A stretch of DNA of 35,318 nt from a virus, in the IMG/VR virus record IMGVR_UViG_3300042882_000356, positions 1-35,318 of that record; one strand, written 5' to 3'. Position numbers and translations under genes: made by a program. Under the pieces are notes generated by a model. That model was not told where the DNA came from and made no database searches. It saw only the letters and a program-made list of their open reading frames with translations. The stretch's first letter is position 1, and each line of letters starts with the position of its first letter. This document shows, piece after piece, positions 9,557-35,318 of the stretch.

Positions 9557-9558
9557 AT

Positions 9559-10044: not shown

Positions 10045-10075
10045 CTGGACAAAATTTAACTTAGCCGAGGACGAC

Positions 10076-12831: not shown

Positions 12832-12832
12832 T

Positions 12833-14278: not shown

Positions 14279-14290
14279 GTAAATAAATCA

Positions 14291-14335: not shown

Positions 14336-14352
14336 ATTTCCAAGGTGGGTAT

Positions 14353-15950: not shown

Positions 15951-15952
15951 TA

Positions 15953-17098: not shown

Positions 17099-17110
17099 GG
17101 TAGAACAACT

Positions 17111-18096: not shown

Positions 18097-18506
18097 TAAC
18101 TTTAGATACTTTAAAAACTAGATTAGATACTACAGGATATACAGTTCAGTTTGCCCGTGACCGTGAGGTTGACTTACAAGAACTAACTGACTTACCTATT
18201 ATCTACATCGGTTATAATAATATAGATAATAAAAACCCTAATCAGCCAATAGCTTATGACACATATGACCTTAATGGCGAGAACTTAGTACAAAACTTTA
18301 CTATACAGCTGGTTTGTCAGCAAGCAGAATTTAGTACAATTTGGAAAGCAGTCTATAAAAAGCTTATAGGATGGAATCCAGTTGTTGCTAATAGTATTCA
18401 TACAAGCTTCACTTACGTCCAAGGTGGAGTTATGGGTTTATCTAATAGTAAGTTCTATTGGGTAGATATTTGGCGAATTGGTTTTCCAACAACTTCAATT
18501 TTATAG
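18093..18506 (+). CDS. Tail terminator-like protein (gpU position)
   Basis: A 137-aa protein with the plan expected of tail terminators, which form the ring that stops tail-tube growth: an N-terminal helix then strand (LDTLKTRLDTTGYTVQFARD), a central strand (LPIIYIGYNNID), NFTIQLVCQQAEFSTIWKAV and a C-terminal strand (SKFYWVDIWRIGFPT). It sits directly before the tail tube gene in the place of lambda gene U. No stronger motif is visible. Confidence 0.6.
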   Translation: MITLDTLKTRLDTTGYTVQFARDREVDLQELTDLPIIYIGYNNIDNKNPNQPIAYDTYDLNGENLVQNFTIQLVCQQAEFSTIWKAVYKKLIGWNPVVANSIHTSFTYVQGGVMGLSNSKFYWVDIWRIGFPTTSIL

Positions 18507-18514
18507 AGGTATTT

Positions 18515-18673
18515 ATGGCTAGTAGTGTTATTCAAGAAGATGGAAGTGTAGTAGATACTTCTTTATTCCAAGAAACAAATAAACTTCCTGCAGATAGTGT
18601 CTGTGGTCAGTTACAAGCTGCTCAAGAGTTACTTGTAGCAGAAGAAGCTCAAACTATCGTAGAAGGAGCATAA
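18515..18673 (+). CDS. Small 52-aa protein before the tail tube
   Basis: A 52-aa protein from ATG 18515 with AGAGGT 4 bases upstream. It is acidic and Gln/Ala/Val-rich (VIQEDGSVVDTSLFQETNKL; QAAQELLVAEEAQTIV) without a membrane segment. It ends 4 bases before the tail tube gene. Not recognised; the open frame extends back to 18458 but only inside the previous gene. Confidence 0.65.
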   Translation: MASSVIQEDGSVVDTSLFQETNKLPADSVCGQLQAAQELLVAEEAQTIVEGA

Positions 18674-18677
18674 CGAA

Positions 18678-19943
18678 ATGGCTGTTAAATTTCATGAAAA
18701 GAACCAAGCTATTTACTTTGGTTTACAAACTGACTCTGGTACTGCAAACAAAGTAGCTACAGGTTCTTTAGGTTCTACAACTGCTATTGCTTGTACAGCT
18801 ATTACGGGCGACCCTACCCGTGATACAGGTTCTTACCAGTACCTAGGTGATTCACTTTCAAGAGATGAATACACTTACGAAAAAGATAAATACATTGACT
18901 TACAGATTGATACTTTCCAACAAGTACTTTCTGATATGACTACTGCTATTAACCCTAATACAGCTAGTTTGTGGAAACTTTATCAAGTTTGTGGTGGTAA
19001 TGTTATTGTCGATGCAACTACTAAAGAAGTATTTGTAGATAATGCAACTGACTCTCCAGATTACGGTACAGCTGACTTTAGAAAATCATCTCCAGACGAC
19101 GCAACTAACGACAAACTTTATAAGTTTTGGGATTTACGCGGAACTGTAGACGTAACTGCAACTGTAGGGGAAGTACCTTCTTTGAAATTCTCTTTGAAAG
19201 GTAACTCTGATGACCCTGTACCTGTTGCTAAACAAGTTGCTAACTTTGGCTCTCAGACTACACGAGTAGCTAGTTCCGTATTGTATTCTACAATTAAAAC
19301 TGCTCAACTTGTAGAGATTTCTCCTTCAGATACTTTTACAGCTACTACAGGTACAGTAACTTCAGTTGCTTATGTAAATGCTCAAGCAACTATCACTTTT
19401 TCAGCGGCTCACTCAATTCCTTTAGGTGAGATTCGTAGAATTAGAGTTTCTGGTTTAACTCCAGCAGCTTTAAATGGTGACTTTACTTTCTATGCAACTA
19501 CAACTACTAAAGGTATTTATTACGTTAAAGGTAATAATACCTCTGGTACTGCTACAGGCACTGCAGTAGTTAAAACTTCTGACGTAACTCCTTCAAGTTT
19601 CTGCTTCTCAACCTTGAATGCAGCTAACTTCTTTGGTTATGACTTCCAAAGATATATGACGGGTTGTGATACTGGTTTTGCTAAAGGCGGTACTCCAACT
19701 GACGTATCAGTATCTATGCTAGAAGACCAAGCTAATGCTGCAGGTGTATTCTCACCAGATACTAAAGCTGGTAGTTTCTTCTCAGCTGTATTGAAGTTTG
19801 GTGGTTCAACTTCTGGCTCAACTGTAGCCTATATGTGGGATAAACTACAATTAGCTAATACAAAACAAGGTAAAATTGCAACTTATTTAGGTCGTGATGT
19901 TACTTTCCGTAATACTGGTAGTTCATTTATCTTCTACCAATAA
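18678..19943 (+). CDS. Major tail tube protein (gpV-like, with inserted beta domain)
   Basis: A 421-aa protein in the place of lambda gene V (246 aa). The N-terminal part (FHEKNQAIYFGLQTDSGTAN; GSYQYLGDSLSRDEYTYEKD) and the C-terminal part (DVSVSMLEDQANAAG; AYMWDKLQLANTKQGKIATY) look like tail-tube strands. The extra length includes an inserted Thr-rich beta domain at about 215-300 (TFTATTGTVTSVAYVNAQAT; KGIYYVKGNNTSGTATGTAV), perhaps a surface decoration. A strong terminator follows, consistent with abundant production of this subunit. Confidence 0.8.
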   Translation: MAVKFHEKNQAIYFGLQTDSGTANKVATGSLGSTTAIACTAITGDPTRDTGSYQYLGDSLSRDEYTYEKDKYIDLQIDTFQQVLSDMTTAINPNTASLWKLYQVCGGNVIVDATTKEVFVDNATDSPDYGTADFRKSSPDDATNDKLYKFWDLRGTVDVTATVGEVPSLKFSLKGNSDDPVPVAKQVANFGSQTTRVASSVLYSTIKTAQLVEISPSDTFTATTGTVTSVAYVNAQATITFSAAHSIPLGEIRRIRVSGLTPAALNGDFTFYATTTTKGIYYVKGNNTSGTATGTAVVKTSDVTPSSFCFSTLNAANFFGYDFQRYMTGCDTGFAKGGTPTDVSVSMLEDQANAAGVFSPDTKAGSFFSAVLKFGGSTSGSTVAYMWDKLQLANTKQGKIATYLGRDVTFRNTGSSFIFYQ

Positions 19944-19960
19944 GATTTTGTGCGCTTCAA

Positions 19961-19989
19961 AGGAGGGGTGAAAGCTCCTCCTCTTTTTA
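19961..19989 (+). terminator. Rho-independent terminator after the tail tube gene
   Basis: AGGAGGGGT (19961-19969) pairs with GCTCCTCCT (19974-19982; two G-T pairs near the loop), giving a 9-bp stem closed by the tetraloop GAAA and followed by CTTTTTAT. This is the clearest terminator in the window. No good promoter is seen before the next gene, so it is probably leaky and lowers expression of downstream tail genes relative to head and tube genes. Confidence 0.85.
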
Positions 19990-20014
19990 TATAACTTTAG
20001 AGGACAACACTAAA

Positions 20015-20458
20015 ATGGCTAAAAAACTATTTGTAAAACTTCAAACTCCGAGTATCGAACTTAAAGTAAAAGCTACTGATGCTTCAAGCGCAACTAGCGA
20101 GATTCTTGTAGGGTTCAAACGATATGACCTTTCGCAGCTGGAAGCAAAATTTAAAGAACAAACTCCAGACTCTGCCACAGATACTAATGCTGATTTCAAC
20201 TTTATCTCTAAAGAAGTTATCTACATTAAAAATGCTGTTCTTGAAATCTATGACGAAAAAGGCGAGTACTTAGAGGACTTAGTAGTTGCCGATACAAGAA
20301 CAGTTGAACCAAATGAGTTCTTCCAAACCCCAGCTGAAGCTTTAGTCGTCCTCCTAGAGCATTATATGGGTTCTAATCCTTGGAAGAACTCCCTTTTTGA
20401 AGCTTATAGAGATGCACTAGTTAATGTATCCTATAAGGAAGCTGAACTAAAAAACTAA
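20015..20458 (+). CDS. Tail assembly chaperone, lambda gpG-like
   Basis: A 147-aa protein between tail tube and tape measure, the usual place for tail assembly chaperones that bind the tape measure protein. It starts FVKLQTPSIELKVKATDASS, contains VGFKRYDLSQLEAKF and YIKNAVLEIYDEKG, and ends PAEALVVLLEHYMG with SYKEAELKN. AGAGGA lies before ATG 20015. Its last codons contain a slippery heptamer, and a second product is expected by frameshift into the following frame. Confidence 0.85.
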   Translation: MAKKLFVKLQTPSIELKVKATDASSATSEILVGFKRYDLSQLEAKFKEQTPDSATDTNADFNFISKEVIYIKNAVLEIYDEKGEYLEDLVVADTRTVEPNEFFQTPAEALVVLLEHYMGSNPWKNSLFEAYRDALVNVSYKEAELKN

Positions 20459-20850
20459 TAGAAGCGGGAGAGTTTCTAGGAAGAGCAGCTTTAGAGAGTT
20501 CACAATCTCACAAACTAGCTAAAGCTAAAAAAGTTGAGGATGACTTTAAAGCTGCTTTTCAATCTCTCGCTTTTGAAGAATCTAGTGAAATAGAGGAAGA
20601 TGAAGAAGTTTACTTCTACCTCTGGGAAAGCTTAGAGGAGATAGTTACTGTTTATAGAACTCTTACTAACTATCTTTCTGAGTACTATGCAATAGATACA
20701 GTAGTTCTTTTAGCTTTAGTTAAAGATAAATGTATGCCTGTAGAGAGAACTTTACAGTTGATTCCCTATATCCATTCTGGGTATTTAGATATTATTGTTG
20801 ATAAGGCAGAAGATAATGGCAGACCAGACAACCAAGACATTAACCCTTAA
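20015..20850 (+). CDS. Frameshifted tail assembly chaperone, gpGT-like fusion
   Basis: A -1 slip at AAAAAAC (20449-20455) would continue translation in the frame that is open from 20455 to the stop at 20848-20850. This adds 131 residues to the 147 of the shorter product, a 278-aa fusion. The extension is acidic and helical (LIEAGEFLGRAALESSQS; SSEIEEDEEVYFYLWESL; VVLLALVKDKCMPVERTL). Without this slip the 20459-20815 interval would have no gene although its codon use is coding-like. It ends 35 bases inside the tape measure gene. The layout matches lambda G/GT. Confidence 0.85.
20449..20455 (+). promoter_or_regulatory. Programmed -1 frameshift site
   Basis: The heptamer A AAA AAC, read in the gpG frame as the end of CTA then AAA AAC, has the X XXY YYZ form. 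The in-frame stop TAA (20456-20458) follows immediately. The -1 frame stays open for 131 codons. A downstream stimulatory structure was not found by eye. Confidence 0.85.
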
Positions 20851-23800
20851 ACTTACTGCTGATACAAAAGGTATTGACGTAGTTAAAAATGCTCTTAAAG
20901 ATTTAGAAAAAGATACTACTTCTCTTTCTAATCTACAACTACAGTCTAATGCCTTAGAAGAAGTTAAAGGTAAATTACTTTTACAACAGGCTAAACAGTT
21001 AGAAGCTATTAATAGCTCAATAGCTTCTTCTAAACTTAAAGAGAATTTCTCTGCTAAAGTCGTAGAAGAATTTGGTAATGAATTATCTAAAGTAAGTAGT
21101 CTATTAGCTGCAATTAAAACAAATACACCAGATATAGGTAAAAGTTTAAGAACTTCAGCTACTAAAATGCTGTCTGAGGAAGAACTTAAATTACAAGCTG
21201 ACTCGCAAGGTAAATATGCAGCTCAACGTATAAAAGCAGAAGAAGATTTAGCTGATAAAACTAGAAAAATAACTCTTGACTCTTTAAGAAAAACTATTGA
21301 AGAACGTAATGCAATTCTAAATGCAGCTAGTAAACAAAGACTAGGGACTGCTATAGGAGATATTACGTCTGCAGAATCCTCTGACCGTAAGAAACTACTA
21401 AGAAGTCTTAGAGAGGATATGACTGAAAGAGCTAAACTCCAACAAGAAGAGTTTAACTTAGTAGAACGTGGTTTGCAACAAACTAGAGTTAGAGAAGCTG
21501 AAAGAGCTAGACTTGAAGAAACTGCTGCTAGACAAAGACTTGAAAGACAAGCTGCAACTAATAGACAACTTTTAGCTAATGAAACTGACTTTAACGAAAG
21601 ACAAAGACAGAATCAGCTTAGAGGAATGCGGACTTCAGCTACTGAAGCTTTTGCGCCTACACCTACCGCAAGATTGTCTCCTATTCCTAGAGTTCCAGAA
21701 GATGTTAGAAATTCTTATGACAGTCTATTTGCTCGTATTGGTGCGATTAATATAGAGTATAGACTTTGGAATACAGCTATTAATACTGTAACTGAAAGTT
21801 TAAGAGGTATTCCTAGAGTAGGTATTGAGTTAGATTCTGTTAAAGCATCTTTAGAATCTACTATGGGTAGTACTGCCGCAATGAACTCAGCCCTAAAAGC
21901 TTTAGATTCTGAAGCTGAACGGACTGGTATTAATATTGGAATTTTAAGAGACAACTTTAAAGGCTTCCAAGCATCTACGTCTCTTTCTGGAGTTAGTTTA
22001 GATTCTACATGGAGAATGTTTACTAACTTAAATACAGTAATTACAGGTTTGCATCTTAGTGCCGATAAAGCAAACCATGTATTCTTAGCTATGTCTCAGA
22101 TTTTTAATAAATCTAAAGTACAGTCTGAAGAGTTAGTTAAGCAATTAGGTAACTTACTCCCAGGCGCATTTGCTAGTTTTGCAGCTTCTATGAATATTGC
22201 TCCTCAAGAATTAGCTAAACAGATGAAAGCAGGTACGGTATTTGCTAAAGATACTATGGAGAATTTCATACAGTATATGGCAACTAAGTTTACCCCAGCT
22301 TTCAATGCTTCTATAGATAACTTAAACGCTAATACAGGCAGAATGCAAACAAGTTTTGTGCATTTGCAAGAAGCTATCTACGAGAAAACTGCTCCTGCAA
22401 TGAATAGCTTTGTAAAAAGTGTAACTGAAACTGTAAAAAGCATGACTTTATTTGTAAGTACAGGTGATAACCTTGCAAGTACTTTACAAACTGTAGTTGT
22501 AGCTGCTTTAAGTTTAGTAGCAGGTCATATAGCTAAATTGATTTTAGCCTATGCAGCTATGGAAACTCAAGCTAAAGCAACTAAAGTAGCTATGATGTGG
22601 TCTAATGCGGAAGCAGCTGCAGTTATTACTTTCTTTGTAACTTTAGGAGAAACTATTTCTGCTACTTACAATGAGTTTGAAAAAATTAAGAATGCTAGAA
22701 GAGATTTTAATGCTCTTTATAAAGAAGCTTTAGTTATAGGAGAAAAAGAATTAGGCACTGATACTTCTAAATTAAAATCTGAAGCAGAACTTCTTAAAAT
22801 TAGAGTAGAAGAAGATAAAACTTTGGGGGATATTAATAATAAGCTTACAGCTATGCAAGCTAAAATGAAAGATACTCCAGAGCAAATTAAAAGAGATAAA
22901 GGTCAAGCTTTAACTAAAGCAGAATGGGATAAAATAAATCAAGATGAAGCTGCTATTACGGCTGTTAAGGAAGAAGCTCAGACTGTCAGAAATAAAGTTA
23001 CTCAAAAGTTATTGCAACAAGATAAGGATGCTGCTGATAAAGTTCATCAAGATAGAATTCAAAGTGAGAAAGATTTTCAAGAAAAGATGGTAACTCTTGC
23101 TGATAAGATTCCAAAAACTCAACAAGAAGCTGTTGCTAATGCTTTAAAAACTTTTAGAGAACAGACTAAAACTCAGTTAGAGCAAGATAAAGCTACTATA
23201 GATAGATATACAGAGTTACTTAAAAAACCTACTGGAAGTGTAAAATCTGATGCTGTTGAAAAAGCTAAAGCTGAAGCTGAGGAAAGTTCTCGCTCTATAG
23301 CTACAGCTAGAGAAACTGAATCCAGAATTACAGAAAAAGCTATTAAACAGTATAATGATAGATTAGAAGCTGAACGAAATAGAGCTTCCTCTAAAAGACT
23401 TGCTGGTATCAAAGAAGAGATTAGTCAAGTAAGACAATTTGAAAGAACAGCTGCTAATGACGCTGAGAACAAAATTAACGAACTTAACTCTGAAAATGAC
23501 CGTAAAGTTTTATCTTTTGAGGATTACCTAAGACGTAAACAAGCTATCCTTGATAAAGACTATAATACTGAAAAAGATTGGTACGAAAAACAAAGAGAGC
23601 TAGCTCAACAGTCTGGTAAAAAAGGTCTAGTAACTCAAGCCGAAGAGCAACTTAAACGTCTTGAGCAAGACTACCAATCTAAGTCTAAAGTAGCTGCAGA
23701 CGAAACAGCTACTAAGATGAATGAGTATGAAACTAACTTAGCTAATATTCATCAACAGTATCAAGATATTCTGGGAATCGAGAGAGATTCTGTAGAGATT

Positions 23801-24871
23801 ACTAAAGTTAAAGTTGAACTTTTAAACCGTCAACTTGAAGCTGAGATTAGAGAAGGTGGAGAAGCTGGAGCTAAAGCGGCTAGACTTAAAGAAGAATTAG
23901 TTATTCTGAATGAAGCTAAAAATCTTAAATCTAAGATGGCTATCTATGATAGAGAAACAGCTACTGCGGAAAAGATTCATGCTGACGCTATAAGTCGGAT
24001 TAATGAGTTACAATCAGCTGGTCAGTTAAATGACTTGTCAGCGGCTATGGCTAAAACTGAAGCTAACCAAAAACTTCTAGCTATAAGAGAGAAAGATGTA
24101 GCTTTAGCTAAAGAAGCTTTAGATTTAGCTAGAGAGGAAGCTAGACCAGCTGCCCAGGACAAATACGATATAGCTAAACAAAAACTTGAAAGTTTAAAAC
24201 TAACTGCAGATGCTACTGGGCAGTTTATAGAGCAATCTTTAGGTAGTGCTTTTGAAAGTTCTTTCCAAGGTTTAATTACTGGAACTATGAATGCGCAACA
24301 AGCTTTCAAGAGTTTTGCAGCTAGTATTGTTTCAGATATTGCTAAGATTATTGCGCAAGAAGCTAGAAGTGCTATTTTAAGACCTATTATTGGAGCAGCC
24401 TTTAATGCTTTAGGAGGTCTGTTCAGTTCTGGTCCTAGTGTTGCCGCAGGTAATTCTACAAGTTTTACCCAAACTATGCAAGGCAGTAATTGGATGACAG
24501 CTAAAGTAGCTAATGGTGGAGTTTTCTCTGGAGCTGGAATCTCAGCACACTCTGGCACAATGGTTAATTCTCCTACATTATTTCCCTTTGCAAAAGGTGT
24601 TGGTTTAATGGGTGAAGCAGGTCCAGAAGCTATTCTACCTTTAAAAAGAAATTCTCAAGGAAAACTAGGCGTTAGTGTAGATAATACTGGACAGCAAGGC
24701 GGCAGTAATATATACTATGTCAACACTACAGTTAATGCTGGGTCAAATGCGTCTCCAGATTCTATAGCTAATAAAGCTTCTGAAGCTATTGTAAGAGCTA
24801 TAGCTAGACAAGAGATTAACTCTGCAGCTAGACCTGGAAATAGACTTAACCAAGTAACTAAATACGGATAG
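20816..24871 (+). CDS. Tail tape measure protein (lambda gpH-like)
   Basis: A 1351-aa protein. The N-terminal 290 residues are coiled coil with the start MADQTTKTLTLKLTADTKGI. Residues about 300-520 form the tape-measure domain (NTVITGLHLSADKANHVFLA; SEELVKQLGNLLPGAFASF). Membrane-like segments are at about 553-581 (LQTVVVAALSLVAGHIAKLI) and 597-617. A long coiled coil with many charged residues spans about 630-1140. The C terminus has the lambda gpH-type GAGISAHSGTMVNSPTLF and VGLMGEAGPEAILPL. ATG 20816 is chosen over an upstream in-frame start because it overlaps the chaperone end normally. At about 0.15 nm per residue the tail would be near 200 nm. Confidence 0.93.
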   Translation: MADQTTKTLTLKLTADTKGIDVVKNALKDLEKDTTSLSNLQLQSNALEEVKGKLLLQQAKQLEAINSSIASSKLKENFSAKVVEEFGNELSKVSSLLAAIKTNTPDIGKSLRTSATKMLSEEELKLQADSQGKYAAQRIKAEEDLADKTRKITLDSLRKTIEERNAILNAASKQRLGTAIGDITSAESSDRKKLLRSLREDMTERAKLQQEEFNLVERGLQQTRVREAERARLEETAARQRLERQAATNRQLLANETDFNERQRQNQLRGMRTSATEAFAPTPTARLSPIPRVPEDVRNSYDSLFARIGAINIEYRLWNTAINTVTESLRGIPRVGIELDSVKASLESTMGSTAAMNSALKALDSEAERTGINIGILRDNFKGFQASTSLSGVSLDSTWRMFTNLNTVITGLHLSADKANHVFLAMSQIFNKSKVQSEELVKQLGNLLPGAFASFAASMNIAPQELAKQMKAGTVFAKDTMENFIQYMATKFTPAFNASIDNLNANTGRMQTSFVHLQEAIYEKTAPAMNSFVKSVTETVKSMTLFVSTGDNLASTLQTVVVAALSLVAGHIAKLILAYAAMETQAKATKVAMMWSNAEAAAVITFFVTLGETISATYNEFEKIKNARRDFNALYKEALVIGEKELGTDTSKLKSEAELLKIRVEEDKTLGDINNKLTAMQAKMKDTPEQIKRDKGQALTKAEWDKINQDEAAITAVKEEAQTVRNKVTQKLLQQDKDAADKVHQDRIQSEKDFQEKMVTLADKIPKTQQEAVANALKTFREQTKTQLEQDKATIDRYTELLKKPTGSVKSDAVEKAKAEAEESSRSIATARETESRITEKAIKQYNDRLEAERNRASSKRLAGIKEEISQVRQFERTAANDAENKINELNSENDRKVLSFEDYLRRKQAILDKDYNTEKDWYEKQRELAQQSGKKGLVTQAEEQLKRLEQDYQSKSKVAADETATKMNEYETNLANIHQQYQDILGIERDSVEITKVKVELLNRQLEAEIREGGEAGAKAARLKEELVILNEAKNLKSKMAIYDRETATAEKIHADAISRINELQSAGQLNDLSAAMAKTEANQKLLAIREKDVALAKEALDLAREEARPAAQDKYDIAKQKLESLKLTADATGQFIEQSLGSAFESSFQGLITGTMNAQQAFKSFAASIVSDIAKIIAQEARSAILRPIIGAAFNALGGLFSSGPSVAAGNSTSFTQTMQGSNWMTAKVANGGVFSGAGISAHSGTMVNSPTLFPFAKGVGLMGEAGPEAILPLKRNSQGKLGVSVDNTGQQGGSNIYYVNTTVNAGSNASPDSIANKASEAIVRAIARQEINSAARPGNRLNQVTKYG

Positions 24872-24875
24872 GGTA

Positions 24876-25226
24876 ATGACTACAGTAGCTATGCCAGTGG
24901 TTAATAAAATAACCTTAGATAGTTCTTTAAAGGTGGGATTTAGTCAAATCTCAGCTAAGTTTGGGGATGGTTATGAGCAAATAGCTCCTAACGGTTTAAA
25001 CAATACAATGGACACTTGGGATATTGTTTGGGGAGCTTTAACTACAGCTGAATTTCAAACTGTCATAGCTGCTTTAAAGTCAGTAGGAACTTGGGGTATT
25101 ATTACTTGGACTCCTTGTGACGAAACTGTACAGAAGAAGTTTAGAATCTCTGGAGACATTACTCGTACCCGTGAAGGAACTTTCTATAATGTAACTTGCA
25201 CTATAAGACAGGTATTTGACGTATGA
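24876..25226 (+). CDS. Minor tail protein M-like
   Basis: A 116-aa protein with the gpM-family signature FGDGYEQIAPNGLNNT (about 29-44), preceded by KVGFSQISAKF and followed by TWDIVWGALTTAEFQ, WGIITWTPCDETVQKKF and YNVTCTIRQVFDV. Lambda gpM is a small tail-tip protein that joins the tape measure complex and the tip. It starts 4 bases after the tape measure stop and overlaps the L-like gene by 4 bases. Confidence 0.88.
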   Translation: MTTVAMPVVNKITLDSSLKVGFSQISAKFGDGYEQIAPNGLNNTMDTWDIVWGALTTAEFQTVIAALKSVGTWGIITWTPCDETVQKKFRISGDITRTREGTFYNVTCTIRQVFDV

Positions 25227-25759
25227 CAATAGCTCAAGATGTTTTAAAGAATGAAGTCCCAGCTTTCATTGAGCTATTTGATATTGATTTATCTTCTACT
25301 AACGAAGCTAGTCTTGTAAATAGCATTCTAAGATTTACTCCTATGGCGGACGGAACTGACCTTTCTAACTTACATAATGTAATGTTTGGTGGAAATACTT
25401 ATTACCCATTTCCTATTCAGTTATCTGGCTTATCTTTAAGTTCAGAAGGCGCACCTCCTAGACCTCAGCTTACTATAGCTAATATAGATAAATCTATAGG
25501 TGATTTTGTCTTTAAGTACGGTGATATTATAGGAACTACTATAATTTACACTAGAACTTTTGCCCCTTACCTAAATACAGCTAATAAAATTTCATTACCA
25601 CCTTTAAAATACTTTATAGCTAAGAAACTTAGTCATAATAAAAACCTTTTATCCTTTGAGCTTAGAGATTTTAGAGATAAAGAAAGAGCTATGTTACCTA
25701 AAAGGCAGATGTTAAAGAAGGATTTTCCTGGACTTGGGATTAATAAATATGTCAGATAA
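25223..25759 (+). CDS. Minor tail protein L-like, without Fe-S domain
   Basis: A 178-aa tail-tip protein in the place of lambda gpL (232 aa). Matching features are the N-terminal VPAFIELFDIDL, FTPMADGTDLSNL, the beta strands YPFPIQLSGLSLSSEG and PPRPQLTIANIDKSIG, and the C-terminal RDFRDKERAMLPKRQM. Lambda gpL continues into a C-terminal region with four Cys that bind an iron-sulfur cluster. This protein ends before that region and contains no Cys, so the cluster is absent. It overlaps genes on both sides. Confidence 0.82.
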   Translation: MTIAQDVLKNEVPAFIELFDIDLSSTNEASLVNSILRFTPMADGTDLSNLHNVMFGGNTYYPFPIQLSGLSLSSEGAPPRPQLTIANIDKSIGDFVFKYGDIIGTTIIYTRTFAPYLNTANKISLPPLKYFIAKKLSHNKNLLSFELRDFRDKERAMLPKRQMLKKDFPGLGINKYVR

Positions 25760-26480
25760 GATTATACTTAGCGAGCTGCAGTTGCAGCAGATAGAAGATG
25801 CTACTCTACAAGCTTATCCTAATGAAATGTGTGGCTTCTTAACAGCTGAGGATTTTATCCCAGTTACTAACATCTCAGATAGACCTCAAGAGTCTTTCAA
25901 GATTGATTCAGTTGATTATATAAAATGGTATAAAGAAACTTTAGCTATTGTTCACTCTCATACAAGAGAAACTAGAAAAGCTGAACTATTTGATTTAAGA
26001 ACTCCAAGTTATGCTGACTATGTAGGTCAAAAGAAAACTGCAAAACCTTGGCTTATTGTTGGATGTGAGGGTATGAGTGTAAGTGACCCTATTCAATTTC
26101 CAAGAGTTAGGTCAAATGTTTATATTGGTAGAAGGTTTCAATGGTTTCTAAACGACTGTTATAACTTAGTTCAAGATTTCTATTGGTTTGAGTTAGGTAT
26201 TGACCTTCCAGAAGCTAAAATAACACCAGACTATGATAAATTAAGAGTTTTTGATGGAATCTTTGATATTTATATAGAAGAATACGGTTTTATTGAAGTT
26301 CCTTATGAGGAATTAAAAGAAAATGACTTAGTTCTTTTAGATAATGGAGGTTTCCAAAGTAATCACTTAGGGATTTATACTAAAGGGCAAATACTTCATC
26401 AAGGTCTTGTCAGTGTTAGTGTTCCCTTTGAAACTTATATAGGAAGAATTAAAAAGGTACTTAGATATGTCAAAGATTAA
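25749..26480 (+). CDS. Tail tip peptidase K-like: JAB/MPN plus NlpC/P60 domains
   Basis: A 243-aa protein in the place of lambda gpK. An N-terminal JAB/MPN metalloprotease domain (about 5-115) shows Glu26 in YPNEMCGFL, His69 and His71 in IVHSHTRE, and Ser87 and Asp90 in TPSYADY. A C-terminal NlpC/P60 peptidoglycan hydrolase domain (about 130-243) shows Cys137 in LNDCYNLVQDF and His206 in SNHLGIYTKG. The spacing between the second His and the Ser is longer than the family pattern. ATG 25749 is preferred over TTG at 25734 in the same frame. It probably helps the tail cross the cell wall. Confidence 0.88.
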   Translation: MSDKIILSELQLQQIEDATLQAYPNEMCGFLTAEDFIPVTNISDRPQESFKIDSVDYIKWYKETLAIVHSHTRETRKAELFDLRTPSYADYVGQKKTAKPWLIVGCEGMSVSDPIQFPRVRSNVYIGRRFQWFLNDCYNLVQDFYWFELGIDLPEAKITPDYDKLRVFDGIFDIYIEEYGFIEVPYEELKENDLVLLDNGGFQSNHLGIYTKGQILHQGLVSVSVPFETYIGRIKKVLRYVKD

Positions 26481-27042
26481 AGTTATTGTTATTGGAGCTG
26501 ATACTGAAAGTTTTGAGTTTCATGCTGATTCTTTAAAAGAAGTTCTATCTCTTATGCAGCTGCAAAAGGGAGAAGAGTTTGTATCTAGTTTAATTAAAGA
26601 AGAGCATAAGTTTATTTTAGCTAATGAAAAAGATTATGAAAATATGATAGCTTTAACCCCAGAAGTTATCTTTTCTAGTTTTGAAGGTTTTACTGATTTA
26701 TATATTATAAAAGAAATTGAAGGGGAAGAACCTATATCTCTAGGAGTATCTGCGGCAGCTGCTTTAGGAGCTACTGGAGCAGCTGCAACCGCTATTGCTT
26801 ATGCTGTAACTCTTGTAGTTTTAATCGCAGTTAGTATGGCAGTTTCAGCTATTATGTCAGCTATTTCGCCAACACCAGAATTTGGTAAAGACCCTTCATC
26901 ACAACAACAAGAATCTAACTTATTTAATAGCGCACCTATAGTAAGAAACCAAGGTGGAAGTGTTCCACTTATTTTTGGTAACCCTTATTGTGGGGCAGTA
27001 CTTATATCATCGGGACTATTTTCAGAAGAGGTAACTGTGTAA
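26467..27042 (+). CDS. Tail assembly protein I-like
   Basis: A 191-aa protein in the place of lambda gpI. An N-terminal ubiquitin-like beta-grasp region (KIKVIVIGADTESFEFHADS) is followed by a long hydrophobic, Ala-rich stretch (about 92-133, ALGATGAAATAIAYAVTLVV then AVSMAVSAIMS), and the C terminus GGSVPLIFGNPYCGAVLIS typical of gpI proteins. It overlaps K by 14 bases and J by 1 base. It acts in tail-tip assembly. Confidence 0.87.
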   Translation: MSKIKVIVIGADTESFEFHADSLKEVLSLMQLQKGEEFVSSLIKEEHKFILANEKDYENMIALTPEVIFSSFEGFTDLYIIKEIEGEEPISLGVSAAAALGATGAAATAIAYAVTLVVLIAVSMAVSAIMSAISPTPEFGKDPSSQQQESNLFNSAPIVRNQGGSVPLIFGNPYCGAVLISSGLFSEEVTV

Positions 27043-30000
27043 TGGAAAACCTAGACTTAGATATTTATGGCGAAAAAGGTGGTGGCGGACATACACCCGT
27101 AGAAGCTAAAGACACTTTAAAATCAAAACAAACCATGAGATTGCTTTTTGCACTTTCAGAAGGTGAAATTGATTCTGTTAGTGATGTTCTAGTTAATAGT
27201 GCTAGTATTTCTAATTATGCAGCTGATGTAGTTACTTGGGAAACAAGAACTGGTACACTAGACCAAGAAATTATAAAAGGTTTTTCTGAAGTTGAAGCTC
27301 CTATTGCAGGTTCTGGTACTTTTCCTATTGAGTTAAAATATAACGTAGAAAAGGTTTATACCCTTTTAGGTCAGTATGATGCTGCACGAGTTACTTTATC
27401 TATAGATAGACTTATGCAAGTAACTGACCAAGGAGATAGAGTAGGTTATCAAGTTTCTTTAGATATTTATAAGCGTAGAAAATTAGCTAATGGTACTACA
27501 GAAAACTGGCAATTAGCAGCTGCCGTTACTAAAAAAGGTAAATGTACAAATATTTATGCTTGGGATGTTAGAGTTGATAAGCCAGCTGGAACTTTATTCG
27601 CTGATTCTTGGGAAATTAAAATAGTTAGAACTTCTCTTGATGATGCTGAAGATAAGTTAATGAGTAAAACTTTTCTAGCTAACATCATAACTATTACAGA
27701 AAGAACTTTAACTTACCCAAAAACTGCTCTTTTAGGCGTAACTATTTACGATGCTAAAACTTTTGGAACATCTATCCCAGAGTTGAAGTTTAAAGTCAAA
27801 GGTATGAAGTTCTTATTACCTTCTAACTATACAGTTTCTGGCAGAAACTATAACGAAAATACTCCTTGGAATGGTTCTTTTAAATCCTACACAGAATATA
27901 CTGATAACTTAGCTTGGGTAACTTACTGGGTACTTAGAAATGAGGATTGGGGTTTAGGAGTTTCAGCTGCTGATATAGACTTAGGTTCTTTCTATACCTA
28001 TGCTAAACATTGCGATGAGATGGTTCCAGCGGGTAATATTACCGAACCTAGATATACAGTTCATCTTCAGTGTATTGAAAGAGAGAATGTACCTACTTTC
28101 TTAATGAAACTTTTGACTTTAGGTAATGCTAACTTCTCTTCTAATGCGTTTGGGCAGATTAAGATTGTCTGGGATGGGGCAGGGCAAGCTATTACTAAAG
28201 TAGTGTCTAATGCTACAGTAGTTGATGGTATGTTTGACTATACTTCTAATGACTTAGAAGGTAGAACTAACTTAGTCAATGTAACTTATGCTAGAGAAGA
28301 TTTCTTTGGAGATAGTGATACTGTAACTCACTATGAAGACTCTTTAATTACTAGATATGGTTTGCAAACTTCAGATGTTATTCTTTTAGGCTGTAAAAGT
28401 GAATACCAAGCTCTAAGAAAAGCTCGTTGGACTTTATATAATAACTGCTATAGCGGGGATTTAGTTACTTTTAAACAACTGTTTCAAGGGGCGCATTACC
28501 AAATTGGAGAGCTAGTCTCTGTAATGGATAGTGATAATGTTAGCTCTAATGCTAAACATGGTATTATTAAAAGTTCTTCAGTCTCTGGTGGACAAGTTAC
28601 AATAGTCTTAGACCGTACAATCACTTTAGCTAATGCAAGTTACTCAGTTGAGTTTATAGGAACTGACGGAACTACATTTAGCTCTAAAACTATCAATCAA
28701 AGTAATGGGTCTTTTTCTACTATAACTTTTGTAGGTACTGACTCCCCTTATACTGGAAGTACTATTCTATTTAAGACTGCTGCTTTAACTCCTAGAGTTA
28801 TTAAAGTTTTAAAGATTGAGAAAGACGATTCTCACGTCTATACTATAACTGGACTTACCCATGATGAAGACAAATACAACTATATTGACTCTACAGGGAC
28901 TATAGTTAAGCCGTCTACTTCTGGTAGTTATGTAAACTTTGATAACTTCAGCATACCTGCAGTTACTAATTTAGTTATCGACCAAGTTCATGTAGTAAAT
29001 CGTGGTGTTGAGTTCTCTAAGTTAGACATTTCTTGGGATTGGAGTTCTGGAAGTACTACAAATGACTTTAAAGCTATCTTTGAAGTGAGCTATAGACGAG
29101 ATGCACAGGACTTTGTACAGTTAAAAGACTTATCTACAACTAACTTTGACATTGAGTACCCACTTCCAGGTGTTTATGAGGTCTATGTTTGGGCAGTTAA
29201 TCCTTTCTCTGGGATTAAATCTATAGTTACAACTACAATAAACCCTTACAACTATAGAGTTGCAGCTGCTATGTCCTCTTTAGTGCCTCCTACTAGTGTT
29301 GTAGTGCCTAATACAGTGGGAGTTGCATTTACTCAACCAGATTTACACCTATCTTGGATGTATAATACTGTAAATGATACTAAAGAAGATGCTTTAAAAG
29401 ACTATGTAGTTCAAGTTCTTGACACAGCAACTAGAACTGTTAAAGGAACTTATACAGTAGCTCCTAATAAAGACAAAGGCGGTGAGTTTGTATTTAGTTT
29501 TTATGAAAACTTTACTATCTTTGGAACTCCGCAAAGAAACTTCATTGTTAAAGTTTATAGTAGAGATATTATAGGGGATTTATCTAACTATGTAGAGGTT
29601 AATCCGACTAATATAGTTCCTGTAGTACAAAGTTTTGACATTCTATCTGGTGTTTCTTCTGTATTTGTACATATTACAACAACTCCAGAAGCAGATATAG
29701 CTGGTTATCAAGTATTTAGAAGTTTAACAGCTAACTTTACTAAGGACTCTAGTACTCTAGTCTATGACGGACCAGATACTTATATTACTTTGAATGTACC
29801 TTCAAGTAGTACTTACTATTATGCAGTTGCAGCTTATGACAGCTTTAGTAGGACTGGACTTAATGTTTCTGGAGAGCAGAATTCAACTCCTTTAAGTGCG
29901 GATGCGACTACTTGGACTAAAACTGGACTTCAATTTACAGTTGACTCTGTAGTTACTAATAAACTTAACTGGACTGCTGGGACTGTCATTAGAAATGGCT

Positions 30001-32753
30001 CAAATACTTATACAATTACAGCAGGAACTACAACTTGGACTTCTGGTTTTGTCTATGTTTATTTTAACCCAGCTGTATCTTTAACTGCTCTACAAGTAAC
30101 TACTACTTTACTTATTGCCGTAGGAGTTGGTTGCTATCCTATTGCAACTTATACTGGAGGTTCAGCTAGTAATATTAAAGGTGGAGATGGTAATGCTTTC
30201 ATCTCTGGTTCTCAGATTATAGCTGGAACTGTAGGTGCTTCCGAGATTAAAGCTGGTTCTATTGTTGCAAGTCTTTTAGATACTACAAATGCAGTTATTA
30301 CTGGAACAGCTCAGATAACTGATGGTATTATTACTAACGCCAAAATTGGCAACTCGATTATGAGTTTAAACTATAATCCAACTACTTATAAAGGGTGGAG
30401 TATAGATAAAACTGGTAATATTAATACTTATGGGTCTTTAGGACTTTATGATACTAGTGGAAATGTAATCTTTGCAGGCGGTAACTTTAACTGGAATAAC
30501 GCTAAAGGTCCTGGAGTTCCTCAAGTAGGAGCTACTAGAAATGTATTCTTAGGTAATTGGTCTAGTGGGTATAGCTATGTAGTTGGTGATATAGTTATGG
30601 ATGCTCTTGGGTATGGTTGGTCTTGTGTAACCCCGCATACTTCGGGCGGTAGTGCATCAACTCCAGTTTATCCTATAACTTCTAACTCTTACTGGGCATT
30701 ATATACTATTAAGGGTGGAACTGGTCCTGCAGGTTTAACTACTGCTACGGTTTATATTTATAGAAGACTAGCTGGAGCTAATCCTCCTGCACTGCCAACA
30801 CAACCAGTAACTTATACTTTTAGTTCTGCAGTTGTTACTGGATTAGATAATAATTGGTCTTATATATTACCTGTTGGTACTGACCCTCTGTATGTTTCAG
30901 CTGCTACTGCTTCTGGAGGTGGAAATACTGATACTATTCAAGCTAATGAATGGGCAACTCCAGTTGTGTTAGCTAAGAATGGTACTGATGGAACTCCTGG
31001 AACTCCAGGAACTAATGGTATAAACACAGCTACTATCTATTTATACCAGACTACAAGTACTTCTGCAGCTCCTACACCGCCAAATGTAGATTTAACTTAT
31101 ACTTTTTCTAATGGAGCTTTAGTAACTTCTACAGGACTACAACCAGACCCTTGGAAAAGAAGTTTACCAACTACAGGAGCTTATCGCTGGATAACCACAG
31201 CTACTGCATTAGGAACTGGAACTACAGACGTAATTACAAGTGCTGAATGGGCGGCTGTAAGTCTATTAGCTAAAGATGGAGCTGCGGCTACTTATGTTAT
31301 AGTTACTGGTGAACAAGCATTTAAGTTTTTATCTGGGCAATCTACTCCTACAGTTGCAAATATAACTTTAACTGCCGCTTTATTCGGTGGCTTAACTACT
31401 TATTCTTGGGAATATTGGTCTGGAGCTACTTGGGTTTCTCTTAGCGGTACTAATACTAACCAAACTTACACTTTAGCCTATAATAATACTGCATTTACAG
31501 CTGCTTCTCTAAGAGTTAGATGTGCTTCTGGCGGTACTTTTGACGAAATAACTGTTCTTAAACTATATGATGGGTCTAATGGGGCTAACGGCACTAACGG
31601 AGTTAACGGAAGTCCAGGAGCTAACGGAAGTAATGGCTCTAATGGAGCTAATGGCATAAATGCTATTAACGGCTACCTTACTAACGAGAGTTCTACCCTT
31701 CCAGCAGATAGTAATGGTACTGTATCTAGTTATGCTGCAGCAGCTGGTAACTTTAAAGTTTTTAGCGGAACTACAGATGTAACTTCCCTTTGTAGTTTTT
31801 CAAAATCTGGAGCTACTAGCGGACTTACTTGTACTATTACAGATGCAGGAGCTTATAGCATCTCTGGTACTATGAATGCTGATACTGCTGTATTTACTTT
31901 AAGTGCAGTATATAGCGGAGCTACTATAAGTAAAGTTCTTAATATTACTAGAGCTAAGGCTGGTACTAACGGTACAAATGGAACCAATGGTACAAATGGT
32001 AATAATGGAGCGCAAGGTCCTGCAGGTCCAGCTGGGGCAGGCACTAACTATACAGGAACTAGTGACCCAACTACTTCTAACCCCTCAGCTGCTATTAATG
32101 GTGATAGTTACTTTCAAACAACTACTCAGTTGATGTGGGTTAAAATTGCTGGAACTTGGAAGAAGGTAGTTCCTCAGATTACTAACGGAAACATAAGTAC
32201 ATTTATATCTAGTGCTGCTATTGGGCAAACTCAAATTGGCAGCGCAGCTATTGGAACTGCTCAGATTATTGATGCTAATGTTAGTACTTTGAAGATTCAA
32301 GGTAATGCTGTTACTGTGCCTAGTACTGCTTTTACTACAACTTCTGTGACTAATACTACAGCATACACTGGTACTACTTGGAGTCCAGCTATACAATCCC
32401 TAACTTATGTTAATGATTTACCAAATGCGTTATCTGTCAATGTAACTTTTGGGTTCTCTATCAGATTTATAGGTCCTACTACTAGATATGATAACTTTTT
32501 ACAAGTATCCCTACAGCAAGTAATTGCAGGAACTACAACTATACCGTATAATGCTACTTGGGCTTACAGCGGGTTTCAAGTTAATGGCGGAGGAGGGCAG
32601 ATGAGCTACCAACCAGCTCCAGGTAGCGCAACTTTAACTTTACAAATACCTGCAAATAGTACTTGCGTATTTAACATGAAACACCAAAAACCTAGCGGAT
32701 GTACGCTAATTTATTCAAATGCCTTTATTACTGTAGTAGGATGTAAACGATGA
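27042..32753 (+). CDS. Tail tip/central fibre protein J-like (host specificity)
   Basis: A 1903-aa protein, much longer than lambda gpJ (1132 aa). The N terminus has the gpJ pattern: GGGHTPVEAKDTLKSKQTMR, LSEGEIDSV and LGVTIYDAKTFGTSIPELKF. Fibronectin-like domains lie at about 640-950 (ADIAGYQVFRS). A WSIDKTGNINTYGSLGLYD segment follows. A carbohydrate-binding-like stretch (GYSYVVGDIVMD, about 1168-1216) and two tandem beta modules starting TATVYIY/TATIYLY come next, then three collagen-like Gly-rich runs near 1313, 1509-1546 and 1639-1666. The C terminus is a beta domain likely to touch the receptor. ATG 27042 overlaps the I stop codon (TAATG). Confidence 0.9.
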   Translation: MENLDLDIYGEKGGGGHTPVEAKDTLKSKQTMRLLFALSEGEIDSVSDVLVNSASISNYAADVVTWETRTGTLDQEIIKGFSEVEAPIAGSGTFPIELKYNVEKVYTLLGQYDAARVTLSIDRLMQVTDQGDRVGYQVSLDIYKRRKLANGTTENWQLAAAVTKKGKCTNIYAWDVRVDKPAGTLFADSWEIKIVRTSLDDAEDKLMSKTFLANIITITERTLTYPKTALLGVTIYDAKTFGTSIPELKFKVKGMKFLLPSNYTVSGRNYNENTPWNGSFKSYTEYTDNLAWVTYWVLRNEDWGLGVSAADIDLGSFYTYAKHCDEMVPAGNITEPRYTVHLQCIERENVPTFLMKLLTLGNANFSSNAFGQIKIVWDGAGQAITKVVSNATVVDGMFDYTSNDLEGRTNLVNVTYAREDFFGDSDTVTHYEDSLITRYGLQTSDVILLGCKSEYQALRKARWTLYNNCYSGDLVTFKQLFQGAHYQIGELVSVMDSDNVSSNAKHGIIKSSSVSGGQVTIVLDRTITLANASYSVEFIGTDGTTFSSKTINQSNGSFSTITFVGTDSPYTGSTILFKTAALTPRVIKVLKIEKDDSHVYTITGLTHDEDKYNYIDSTGTIVKPSTSGSYVNFDNFSIPAVTNLVIDQVHVVNRGVEFSKLDISWDWSSGSTTNDFKAIFEVSYRRDAQDFVQLKDLSTTNFDIEYPLPGVYEVYVWAVNPFSGIKSIVTTTINPYNYRVAAAMSSLVPPTSVVVPNTVGVAFTQPDLHLSWMYNTVNDTKEDALKDYVVQVLDTATRTVKGTYTVAPNKDKGGEFVFSFYENFTIFGTPQRNFIVKVYSRDIIGDLSNYVEVNPTNIVPVVQSFDILSGVSSVFVHITTTPEADIAGYQVFRSLTANFTKDSSTLVYDGPDTYITLNVPSSSTYYYAVAAYDSFSRTGLNVSGEQNSTPLSADATTWTKTGLQFTVDSVVTNKLNWTAGTVIRNGSNTYTITAGTTTWTSGFVYVYFNPAVSLTALQVTTTLLIAVGVGCYPIATYTGGSASNIKGGDGNAFISGSQIIAGTVGASEIKAGSIVASLLDTTNAVITGTAQITDGIITNAKIGNSIMSLNYNPTTYKGWSIDKTGNINTYGSLGLYDTSGNVIFAGGNFNWNNAKGPGVPQVGATRNVFLGNWSSGYSYVVGDIVMDALGYGWSCVTPHTSGGSASTPVYPITSNSYWALYTIKGGTGPAGLTTATVYIYRRLAGANPPALPTQPVTYTFSSAVVTGLDNNWSYILPVGTDPLYVSAATASGGGNTDTIQANEWATPVVLAKNGTDGTPGTPGTNGINTATIYLYQTTSTSAAPTPPNVDLTYTFSNGALVTSTGLQPDPWKRSLPTTGAYRWITTATALGTGTTDVITSAEWAAVSLLAKDGAAATYVIVTGEQAFKFLSGQSTPTVANITLTAALFGGLTTYSWEYWSGATWVSLSGTNTNQTYTLAYNNTAFTAASLRVRCASGGTFDEITVLKLYDGSNGANGTNGVNGSPGANGSNGSNGANGINAINGYLTNESSTLPADSNGTVSSYAAAAGNFKVFSGTTDVTSLCSFSKSGATSGLTCTITDAGAYSISGTMNADTAVFTLSAVYSGATISKVLNITRAKAGTNGTNGTNGTNGNNGAQGPAGPAGAGTNYTGTSDPTTSNPSAAINGDSYFQTTTQLMWVKIAGTWKKVVPQITNGNISTFISSAAIGQTQIGSAAIGTAQIIDANVSTLKIQGNAVTVPSTAFTTTSVTNTTAYTGTTWSPAIQSLTYVNDLPNALSVNVTFGFSIRFIGPTTRYDNFLQVSLQQVIAGTTTIPYNATWAYSGFQVNGGGGQMSYQPAPGSATLTLQIPANSTCVFNMKHQKPSGCTLIYSNAFITVVGCKR

Positions 32754-33235
32754 ATGCTATCATTTATAACATTGATGGGAAAATACTTAGAGTTCTGAAT
32801 ATGCCAGAAGAGCTGATAACTAGTAATGTAGGTATAGATGAGTATTTTATAGAAGGAGAAGCTGACGATAGTACTCAGTTTATAGAGAATGGAGAAATTA
32901 AATTTATTCCAGATAGACCAAACCAATATAGTGAGTTCAACTGGACTACTAAACAATGGGAAGACCCTCCAACTATTCTTGACACTGCAAAGACTGACTA
33001 CAAAGATGAGGTTAATAGGCTTTCTGGAGCTAAGATATTATCTGTATATCCAACTTACCGTCAGATAAACTACAATAGAGAGCCAACAGCTCCAGCTACT
33101 ATAGAAATGAATCTCTGGATAGATAATATACGAGCTGAAAGTAATATAGCTACTTCAGCTATAGATTCAGCTACTGATTTAGCAACTATAGAGGGTATTG
33201 TAGATGGATTTATAGCTTATTTAGCTAGTTTGTAA
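32750..33235 (+). CDS. Fibre-associated protein, probable tail fibre assembly type
   Basis: A 161-aa protein that overlaps the J gene by 4 bases. The N-terminal half (IYNIDGKILRVLNMPEELIT; DSTQFIENGEIKFIPDRPNQ; SEFNWTTKQWEDP) has the look of small fibre-associated proteins. The C-terminal half is helical with TAPATIEMNLWIDNIRAESN, similar in style to DUF4376-like domains attached to fibre assembly proteins. It may assist folding of the long J fibre. No diagnostic motif; role inferred. Confidence 0.65.
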   Translation: MNAIIYNIDGKILRVLNMPEELITSNVGIDEYFIEGEADDSTQFIENGEIKFIPDRPNQYSEFNWTTKQWEDPPTILDTAKTDYKDEVNRLSGAKILSVYPTYRQINYNREPTAPATIEMNLWIDNIRAESNIATSAIDSATDLATIEGIVDGFIAYLASL

Positions 33236-33458
33236 GGTTTATGCGTCAAGTTTCTGGCTAATGTCGGATTCTTGGCGCAAAATTACCTTAAATATGTCTT
33301 GAAATTGTAACAAAACAAGAGTAAACTAACTAGAAATAGCAATTTAACTTTATAATTAACCTCGTTTAGTTATAAACTTAACTTGCTGATAAAGGTTTTG
33401 AGTAGCTATTACTCAGAAATGACACTGCATTACAGTGGGAAGAACTAGGAGATTGACT
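33236..33458 (+). other. Non-coding gap with hairpin and possible promoter
   Basis: This 223-base AT-rich gap holds a 9-bp hairpin, TGCGTCAAG (33242-33250) with CTTGGCGCA (33271-33279), with one G-T pair and a 20-base loop, but no T-run after it. TTGAAA followed after 17 bases by TAAACT (near 33299-33327) and a TATAAT (33351-33356) are candidate promoter elements for the next gene. CACTG/CAGTG (33423-33437) is a small inverted repeat just before its TAGGAG ribosome binding site. No gene is seen here. Confidence 0.4.
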
Positions 33459-34313
33459 ATGGCAGTCGATTCTACAAGTACAAGTTCAGGTATTGACTTG
33501 AACAATCTCTTTCAATCAGCAATTACAGGTGGTAATATGGGTAACATCTTCGGTGGCGGTAATGATGGTAGTGGCGGCTTTGTAATGGGAGCTTTATTAG
33601 GTAGATTACTATTTAATCCTAATGGTAATGACCTAAATGGTAATGGCAGCCAAAATGCTGCTATTGATGCCGCAGTTGCAGCTGCTCTAGCTAATGCTAA
33701 TCAAGCTAATAACAATGCTATGCTACTCTTGAAAGACATTCAAGATAGTTCTCAAGAAGTTATCTCAACTATCAATGCTTCAGAAAATGCTATTAACTCT
33801 ACAGTTAATGCTACCGCGCAGACTGCTTTAGTACAACAACTACAAGCTCAGATTGCAAACCTCCAAGGACAAGGCGAGATTAAGGCTTCAGTAGCAACTT
33901 CTACTGGAACTATTGTCAACGAGTTGCATGAATCTACTCAGCAAATTGGCAATCAGTTAGATGGTATTACTGTATCTATGCTTAATGGGTTTAATAACGT
34001 AACTAGAGAAATTACTAATGATGGTGATAAAACTAGAGCGTTGATTACAGCTAATATGGTTACTGACTTGAACAATCAGATTGCAGACTTGAGAACTCAA
34101 CGTCATGTAGCTGATAGTGGAGTTAATGTTACTAATAACATCAATCAAAACCAACTTCAACAACAGCAACAACAACAGTTAGGGTATGTAGTTAATGCTC
34201 TAAATGGAGTTGTTAGTGAGTTACAGAGAAACACGCAATCTGTGGTTAATCTTGGAACTATGTCGGGGTCAGCAGGTTCTCAAACAGCTAATAACACTAG
34301 AGTTAATGGCTGA
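33459..34313 (+). CDS. Unknown 284-aa Asn/Gln-rich coiled-coil protein
   Basis: Not recognised as a named family. The N terminus is Gly/Asn-rich (GGNMGNIFGGGNDGSGGFVM) with a hydrophobic patch (GALLGRLLF). Then follows an Ala/Asn-rich helix (AIDAAVAAALANANQANNNA) and a long coiled coil (QTALVQQLQAQIANLQGQGE). A LNGFNNVTREITNDGDKTRA segment follows, then a run of Gln near residues 229-238 and an Asn/Ser-rich end. ATG 33459 has TAGGAG 7 bases upstream and is preferred to GTG 33435. Similar Gln/Asn-rich coiled-coil proteins occur as phage virion or ejected proteins, but I cannot confirm this. Confidence 0.7.
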   Translation: MAVDSTSTSSGIDLNNLFQSAITGGNMGNIFGGGNDGSGGFVMGALLGRLLFNPNGNDLNGNGSQNAAIDAAVAAALANANQANNNAMLLLKDIQDSSQEVISTINASENAINSTVNATAQTALVQQLQAQIANLQGQGEIKASVATSTGTIVNELHESTQQIGNQLDGITVSMLNGFNNVTREITNDGDKTRALITANMVTDLNNQIADLRTQRHVADSGVNVTNNINQNQLQQQQQQQLGYVVNALNGVVSELQRNTQSVVNLGTMSGSAGSQTANNTRVNG

Positions 34314-34357
34314 AATCGGTATGGTCTGGTTAGTTTAGGTTCTAAATCGAGGTAAAG

Positions 34358-34741
34358 ATGAGTTCTTCAATAGATGAGTTACAAAAACGGATAGCAGAAC
34401 TGCAAGTAGCGGGAGGTTTAGTCCCTAAACAGCCAGTTCCAGCTGTAAATGACAGTCCTAGTGACATAAAAAGTTTAATTAGGGATGTTATTCGTGAAGA
34501 AATGAGCTTATTGAAGGACTCAACTCTAGTTAAGCCCGAACCTCCTGTAGTTCCAGCGCGAGAATTAACTATGTTGGAAGCTATAGGTCAGTGTTTAACC
34601 CCAGAAGAGCAAGTTTGGCTCTCTAAACCAGATATTCTACAACAAGTTGACAAGAAATTAGCAACTTATTTCCAGACGGAGGAAGGAAAGTCAGCTGTAA
34701 AGACTTTCTTCACCTACTTTCGAGGGTTCTATGAAAATTAA
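34358..34741 (+). CDS. Unknown 127-aa protein with coiled coil and Pro-rich linker
   Basis: Not recognised. It has a short N-terminal coiled coil (SSIDELQKRIAELQVAGGL), a helix with SDIKSLIRDVIREEMSLL, a Pro-rich linker (KPEPPVVPARE) and a helical C-terminal domain (LEAIGQCLTPEEQVWLSK; LATYFQTEEGKSAVKTFFTY). GAGGT precedes ATG 34358 and it overlaps the next gene by 11 bases. The two genes probably work together. No membrane or catalytic motif. Confidence 0.7.
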   Translation: MSSSIDELQKRIAELQVAGGLVPKQPVPAVNDSPSDIKSLIRDVIREEMSLLKDSTLVKPEPPVVPARELTMLEAIGQCLTPEEQVWLSKPDILQQVDKKLATYFQTEEGKSAVKTFFTYFRGFYEN

Positions 34742-34988
34742 ACATACAGTTGAAGCTACTGCGAAGGAGGTTAATGACCTTTTCGACATTAGTATGAAGG
34801 CTTGCCTAGCTAGTTATAGTACAGTTGAAGAGCAAGCAGTTGCTATCTCAGCTGCTAAGGTTGAGTTTGAAAAGTTACTTAACTGCTACGCGGATGTGGC
34901 ACTGCAGTTAGGTAAGAAGTTGGGTAAAGTTAGTGCTGATTCAGAAGATGATGAGATGTATGCGGCTATGGAAACTCCTGTAGCTTAA
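34731..34988 (+). CDS. Unknown small 85-aa protein
   Basis: Not recognised. A helical soluble protein (VEATAKEVNDLFDISMKACL; VAISAAKVEFEKLLNCYADV) with an acidic end (SADSEDDEMYAAME). Its start lies inside the last codons of the 127-aa gene, so it is translationally coupled. It is the last gene of the plus-strand block before the right-end repeat. Confidence 0.7.
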   Translation: MKIKHTVEATAKEVNDLFDISMKACLASYSTVEEQAVAISAAKVEFEKLLNCYADVALQLGKKLGKVSADSEDDEMYAAMETPVA

Positions 34989-35000
34989 CTTCAACTTAGT

Positions 35001-35045
35001 CCTCTTTCGGGTATGTATTAGAAGTTAGTATATAGCTGAAAGGGG
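35001..35045 (+). terminator. Possible hairpin after the last plus-strand gene
   Basis: CCTCTTTCGG (35001-35010) can pair with CTGAAAGGGG (35036-35045) over 10 positions with two G-T pairs and a 25-base AT-rich loop. It follows the stop at 34988 but is not followed by a T-run, so a rho-independent terminator is only possible. Confidence 0.35.
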
Positions 35046-35049
35046 ATTC

Positions 35050-35301
35050 TTAACTAGAGCGGAGTTTATATAAACTTTCTAAAGTATCTGGAACTGTGCT
35101 GAAAGTCTTAGTTAGAGGTTCAAGTGTAGCTGGAGTTACTAGCTGATATGGTAAGTTATATAAGTTTATAGGTGGGAAGTGTGGCTCTGCCCAATTCAAA
35201 AACCTACTCTCCTTCAATCCCCCAAACTCCCTGCCAAGTCTAACTATATCATCATGTTTAAGTACAGCTTCTTTATCTACTCTAATGTCTAACTTACTCA
35301 T
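35050..35301 (-). pseudogene. Truncated or chimeric rep frame at the inverted end
   Basis: The first 36 residues equal the Rep_3 initiator at 18-749. At the end of the 127-bp repeat the sequence changes and continues in frame for 47 residues (AEPHFPPINLYNLPYQLVTP, then ATLEPLTKTF, ending YKLRSS). The new part has codon use like the phage's other genes (many TTA, ACT, CCA, GCT). It could be a second gene sharing the rep start, a recombined partial copy, or an artefact of a contig ending at a shared k-mer. It lacks all Rep_3 winged-helix motifs. Confidence 0.45.
35063..35076. repeat. 14-bp perfect palindrome near the right end
   Basis: AGTTTATATAAACT is its own reverse complement. It lies in an AT-rich stretch inside the truncated rep-like frame. 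It could be a protein-binding site or a coincidence of AT-rich sequence. Confidence 0.6.
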
Positions 35302-35318
35302 CTATATACACCTCAAAA
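35192..35318. repeat. Right copy of exact 127-bp inverted terminal repeat
   Basis: Reverse complement of bases 1-127 without mismatch; base 35191 (c) breaks the match. If the two ends were joined they would form one perfect palindrome of 254 bases, which argues against simple circular closure. Confidence 0.97.

Follow-up and report, generated by a model that had tools for sequence, protein, structure and literature searches.

A probable long inverted repeat carrying the start of a replication-initiator gene at both ends of a 35-kb tailed-phage arm

The structural arm and its two ends

The window, by which we mean the whole stretch of 35,318 nucleotides that was analysed (positions 1 to 35,318 of IMG/VR record IMGVR_UViG_3300042882_000356), consists of a unique arm, S, bounded by two copies of an inverted repeat, X (Table 1). 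S encodes a TSCPD protein, an endolysin, fibre genes, an HNH endonuclease, the terminase large subunit, portal, protease, major head protein, tape measure and tail proteins. The initiator gene rep is its only replication gene, and protein and profile searches of S found no DNA polymerase, helicase or recombinase. No match was returned when annotated phages and plasmids were searched by DNA with window positions 1-25000, or from phages when rep and the 47-aa tail were used as queries; the relatives in IMG/VR amount to only about ten related contigs. Within the arm, about 0.5 kb of additional DNA is present in relatives at window 10624-10650 (G001, G007), 12562 and 17071-17096 (G018), possibly mobile endonuclease insertions. 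Window 3483-4889 and 5317-6926, a repeat-bearing gene and the fibre/HNH region, are replaced or rearranged in relatives, which likely reflects host-range variation.

Direct comparison of the two ends shows that X matches over its full length with 0 mismatches and that identity is lost from base 128 on the left and 35191 on the right, the next 20 bases agreeing at only 2 positions. A repeat search of the window found other inverted pairs of 26-27 nt at about 80% identity, leaving X as the sole long repeat, and chance is excluded as the source of an exact match of 127 nt. The first-pass annotation had described the ends as exact 127-bp inverted repeats with an abrupt loss of identity, and that description was borne out; it did not recognize X as the 5′ end of a Rep_3 initiator gene, comprising the Shine-Dalgarno sequence, the start codon (ATG at 18) and the first 36 codons. 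The left copy continues into the whole of rep, which is 96% identical to its counterpart at L003 over residues 43-243, and the right copy is a truncated duplicate. Truncated copies of a similar kind occur in relatives (44 aa in L006). Separately, a second rep-like gene follows the first in tandem in L043/G018 (704-1321) and is about 35-38% identical to the window rep; the 149-aa ORF found there in the window looks unrelated.

At the right end the structural operon closes with a conserved hairpin, predicted to fold at about -27 kcal/mol in the window, G004, G003 and G007. In G002, G004, G008 and G009, 74-93 bp of inverted X directly follow this hairpin, and only the window has 137 bp more between the two. 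The segment is in frame with the rep start, and its first ~20 codons (WAEPHFPPINLYNLP) are similar to the N-terminal part of a small protein (WSDLTLPPINLWNLP) that other phages encode, for example at L079 (E 1.65e-04, small database). At L011, L014 and L016, which carry remoter relatives of the right-end gene, other genes come next, so these loci are uninformative on the junction.

Table 1. Features of the window and their coordinates
Feature	Positions	Strand	Remarks
X, left copy: 17 nt with Shine-Dalgarno (GAGGTG), ATG and first 36 rep codons	1..127	+	Exact reverse complement of 35192-35318
Rep_3-type replication initiator (rep), complete, 243 aa, start inside X	18..749	+	Pfam Rep3_N 1.7e-07, Rep3_C 6.7e-06 (both above cut-off); PHROG replication initiation protein
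21-nt block GGAGAGTAGGTTTTTGAATTG, inner edge of X	107..127	+	Identical in all relatives compared
Unique 35-kb arm (S) between the repeats	128..35191		Remainder of rep, TSCPD, lysis and fibre genes, terminase, head and tail genes
149-aa ORF after rep	697..1146	+	No family match; L043 has a second rep-like gene here
47-aa 'leader' ORF	1188..1331	+	In Rep2-type relatives, part common to both arm ends
Ribonucleotide-reductase-like TSCPD protein, 216 aa	1285..1935	+	Database and profile matches
Strong 51-nt hairpin ending the structural arm	34998..35048	+	Conserved in relatives; X or Rep2 starts just beyond
Truncated second rep start, 83 aa: 36 X codons in frame with 47 other codons	35050..35301	-	Leaves the rep sequence after codon 36
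137-bp segment between right X and hairpin	35055..35191	-	In no relative; absent from G002, G004, G008, G009
21-nt block GGAGAGTAGGTTTTTGAATTG, second copy	35192..35212	-	At inner edge of right X
X, right copy	35192..35318	-	Reverse complement of 1-127; homologous sequence at the equivalent place in L004/G002, L006/G004, L010/G008, L015/G009

Where related contigs break

Related contigs from independent assemblies end at the same place as the window. G001 (34,363 bp) spans window 142-35047 only, with both of its ends within about 15 bp of the edges of S. In metagenome 3300036985, G018/L043 at its left end and G008/L010 at its right end have exactly 127 nt in common, inverted and at the equivalent position in rep, and then diverge, which is the finding of the window again in another sample and another phage. 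G009 stops exactly 127 nt past the junction, if its edge is placed at the base found for G008, and in G002, from another sample, the corresponding overhang is exactly 99 nt. The lengths of direct terminal repeats (DTRs) examined with CheckV peak at k values such as 55, 77 and 99, and only 33.2% of the ITR contigs having an estimate were >90% complete (PMC8116208). The overhangs of 127, 127 and 99 nt track the assembler k in the same way, so that 127 is a word length and not a biological one. The resemblance to the k-length repeats of CheckV lies in this equality of repeat and k-mer; direct repeats are there attributed to circular genomes (PMC8116208). The repeat of the window is inverted, an indication that the genome itself contains a real inverted repeat.

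These results bear on the proposals made from the window sequence at first pass. Entry of both ends into one 127-mer node, with a longer inverted repeat or an invertible segment lying beyond base 1, gains support from assemblies that break independently at the same gene position (127, 127 and 99 nt) and from relatives that run on past the node into real sequence. The exact 127-bp terminal repeat of a phage-plasmid and the chimera, both offered as options, are disfavoured. Inverted chimeras arise in amplified or mis-assembled DNA; a chimera or amplification artefact is nevertheless most improbable here, as the same junction is found in several metagenomes and in divergent phages. The shared node is real, since chimeras formed by chance would not keep arising at a single gene position in several metagenomes. 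A two-strain mixture was also considered and rejected, since it would give a second branch at each end of S, where the window instead passes into X without a break. From this continuity it follows that, in the sample, the arm is bounded by X at either end in each of its dominant copies.

A real terminal inverted repeat of exactly 127 bp, marking the physical ends of a linear phage-plasmid, would fit both the exactness of the inverted ends and an end gene that is a plasmid-type initiator. It is very unlikely, however, given an overhang that follows the assembly word length (99 in G002, 127 elsewhere), sequence that continues past the edge in G003 and G004, a terminase and portal that imply concatemer packaging, and an arm with no replication gene besides rep. 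The protein-primed linear phages (phi29, PRD1) differ from the window on similar grounds: their repeat lies at the physical ends, whereas homologous sequence continues past the edge in G003 and G004, and they have a terminal protein and a protein-primed DNA polymerase without a headful or cos terminase, whereas the window has a large terminase subunit and a portal and no polymerase was found in S. As for telomere phages of the N15 type, which have a protelomerase and a palindromic telomere site, protelomerase gave no match in S, the early region lying mostly outside the contig.

Comparison of X among phages gives a further indication. X is 100% identical within a phage (127/127 in two phages) and 70-90% identical between phages, and this difference points to homogenization by recombination. 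The 21-nt block GGAGAGTAGGTTTTTGAATTG is invariant among the relatives compared and the remainder of X varies. An exact 60-mer of X matched no other contig, and a degenerate pattern of X matched only relatives already known. On comparison of these contigs, the inverted repeat is judged to be real and to flank the 35-kb structural arm in several related uncultured phages.

Sequence on the far side of the junction

Two relatives show what may lie outside the arm. G004 crosses the junction and extends about 770 bp outward, with a predicted sigma-70 promoter matching 12/12 consensus bases and a 103-aa ORF upstream of the truncated rep. G003 extends outward for more than 5 kb through Rep2 (a full-length Rep_3 gene distinct from rep), a promoter, three 21-bp iterons and a homologue of the ORF of G004, and then through exonuclease, ligase, thymidylate synthase and kinase genes. 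The iterons of G003 lie upstream of the rep promoter, and the corresponding place in the window is beyond base 1, where the layouts of G003 and G004 lead us to expect the rep promoter, probably an origin, and early genes. Since both contigs cross the junction, the repeat must be resolvable or absent in those samples. Among the approximately ten related contigs none holds both outer flanks of one phage, queries from the outer region (ORF100, ligase, leader) returned known contigs only, and contig scans with terminase and with Rep2 found no relative.

In L005 (G003, 11994-12767) and L009 (G007, 11628-12386), Rep2, about 20-24% identical to the window rep, occupies the right end in place of the truncated rep. 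The part shared by the two ends in these Rep2-type phages is the 47-aa leader with the first ~11 codons of the next gene, from which G017 (left end) goes on into TSCPD and G007 (right end) into Rep2; these two contigs end 126-129 nt outside that edge. Judged by this arrangement, Rep2-type phages appear to have the same architecture as the window with the edge in another gene and another sequence, and they support it more weakly because their left and right ends come from different metagenomes.

The invariant 21-nt block invites comparison with site-specific inversion, in which X would hold a recombination site and a dedicated recombinase would flip the 35-kb arm as Cin and Gin do in P1 and Mu. 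The C segment of P1 and the G segment of Mu are invertible phage DNA between inverted repeats, a few kb long, carrying tail-fibre genes with the recombinase adjacent. The window likewise has inverted repeats at both ends of the segment, both ends of S meet the same sequence, and the block is invariant among the compared relatives within an otherwise variable X. However, the arm of the window is 35 kb, its repeat carries the start of rep, searches of S and of the scanned part of the G003 early genes turned up no recombinase, the edge of the Rep2 type sits in another gene with a different sequence, and a short repeat should be resolved by paired reads. This alternative is therefore unlikely, if less so than the others considered here.

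A linear genome with long terminal inverted repeats, several kilobases in length, including early genes and having inner edges that drift, is also improbable, somewhat more so than site-specific inversion. The drift of the edge and the truncated edge genes are the expected residue of repeat expansion and contraction, but the early genes would then be duplicated, and the contigs have no common outer end point. We know of no tailed phage with such long terminal inverted repeats.

Proposed genome architecture

The reading we prefer, and consider probable, is that the 35-kb arm lies between two inverted copies of the rep promoter and origin region that are too long for short reads, that the assembler stopped at the 127-mer common to both, and that the copies are kept identical by recombination. 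The 127-base repeat is the visible edge, cut to the assembler word length, of an inverted repeat that is real and probably longer. The contig would represent the long unique arm of a tailed-phage genome with the same sequence inverted on either side. This flanking sequence would start with X and continue beyond base 1, where the rep promoter and an iteron origin probably lie, over more than the reach of a short-read insert; a repeat of several hundred bases or more is likely, because short-read assemblers normally span any repeat that fits within a read pair. On the left, the promoter and start within the repeat would drive the complete rep, and on the right they would run into the truncated rep, set against the hairpin that ends the structural operon. 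Both flanks would receive their promoter, ribosome site and start codon from the repeat, whose edges lie just inside gene starts. Homologous recombination between the copies would keep them identical and could invert the arm relative to the early genes, an inversion that probably does take place. We infer that the repeat extends well past 127 bp, that it includes the promoter and origin in this phage, that recombination both preserves the identity of the copies and inverts the arm, and that the genome has a circular map.

This architecture has partial counterparts in other genomes. In genomes of the plastid type, identical inverted repeats enclose a large single-copy arm and their edges drift, leaving truncated gene copies there; the arm of the window is also unique, flanked by identical inverted repeats and bordered by a truncated edge gene. 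The window differs in that it belongs to a tailed phage and its edge gene is a replication initiator. The window rep has the Rep3_N and Rep3_C domains of iteron replicons of the Rep_3 (RepA/RepB) type, and iterons occur in its relative G003; here, however, the gene start, and probably the origin as well, is present twice, inverted, within a tailed-phage genome. A search of the literature found no description of such a phage.

An extension of this proposal, which we offer tentatively, is that, in a group of tailed phages, each end of the structural arm retains its own copy of an iteron origin with the rep promoter and start, the two being identical and in inverted orientation. By recombining, these copies might flip the 35 kb, give both flanking operons the same promoter and, through double rolling-circle replication of the kind known from the yeast 2-micron plasmid, perhaps also amplify the DNA.

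Contigs with inverted ends usually either pass for complete linear genomes or are set aside. The contig examined here appears to be neither, and would instead be one arm of a larger phage genome. Recurrence of the same break in several metagenomes points to a conserved genome architecture hidden by short-read assembly, and if the repeat does carry the replication origin twice, it would constitute an unusual replication or inversion arrangement for tailed phages.
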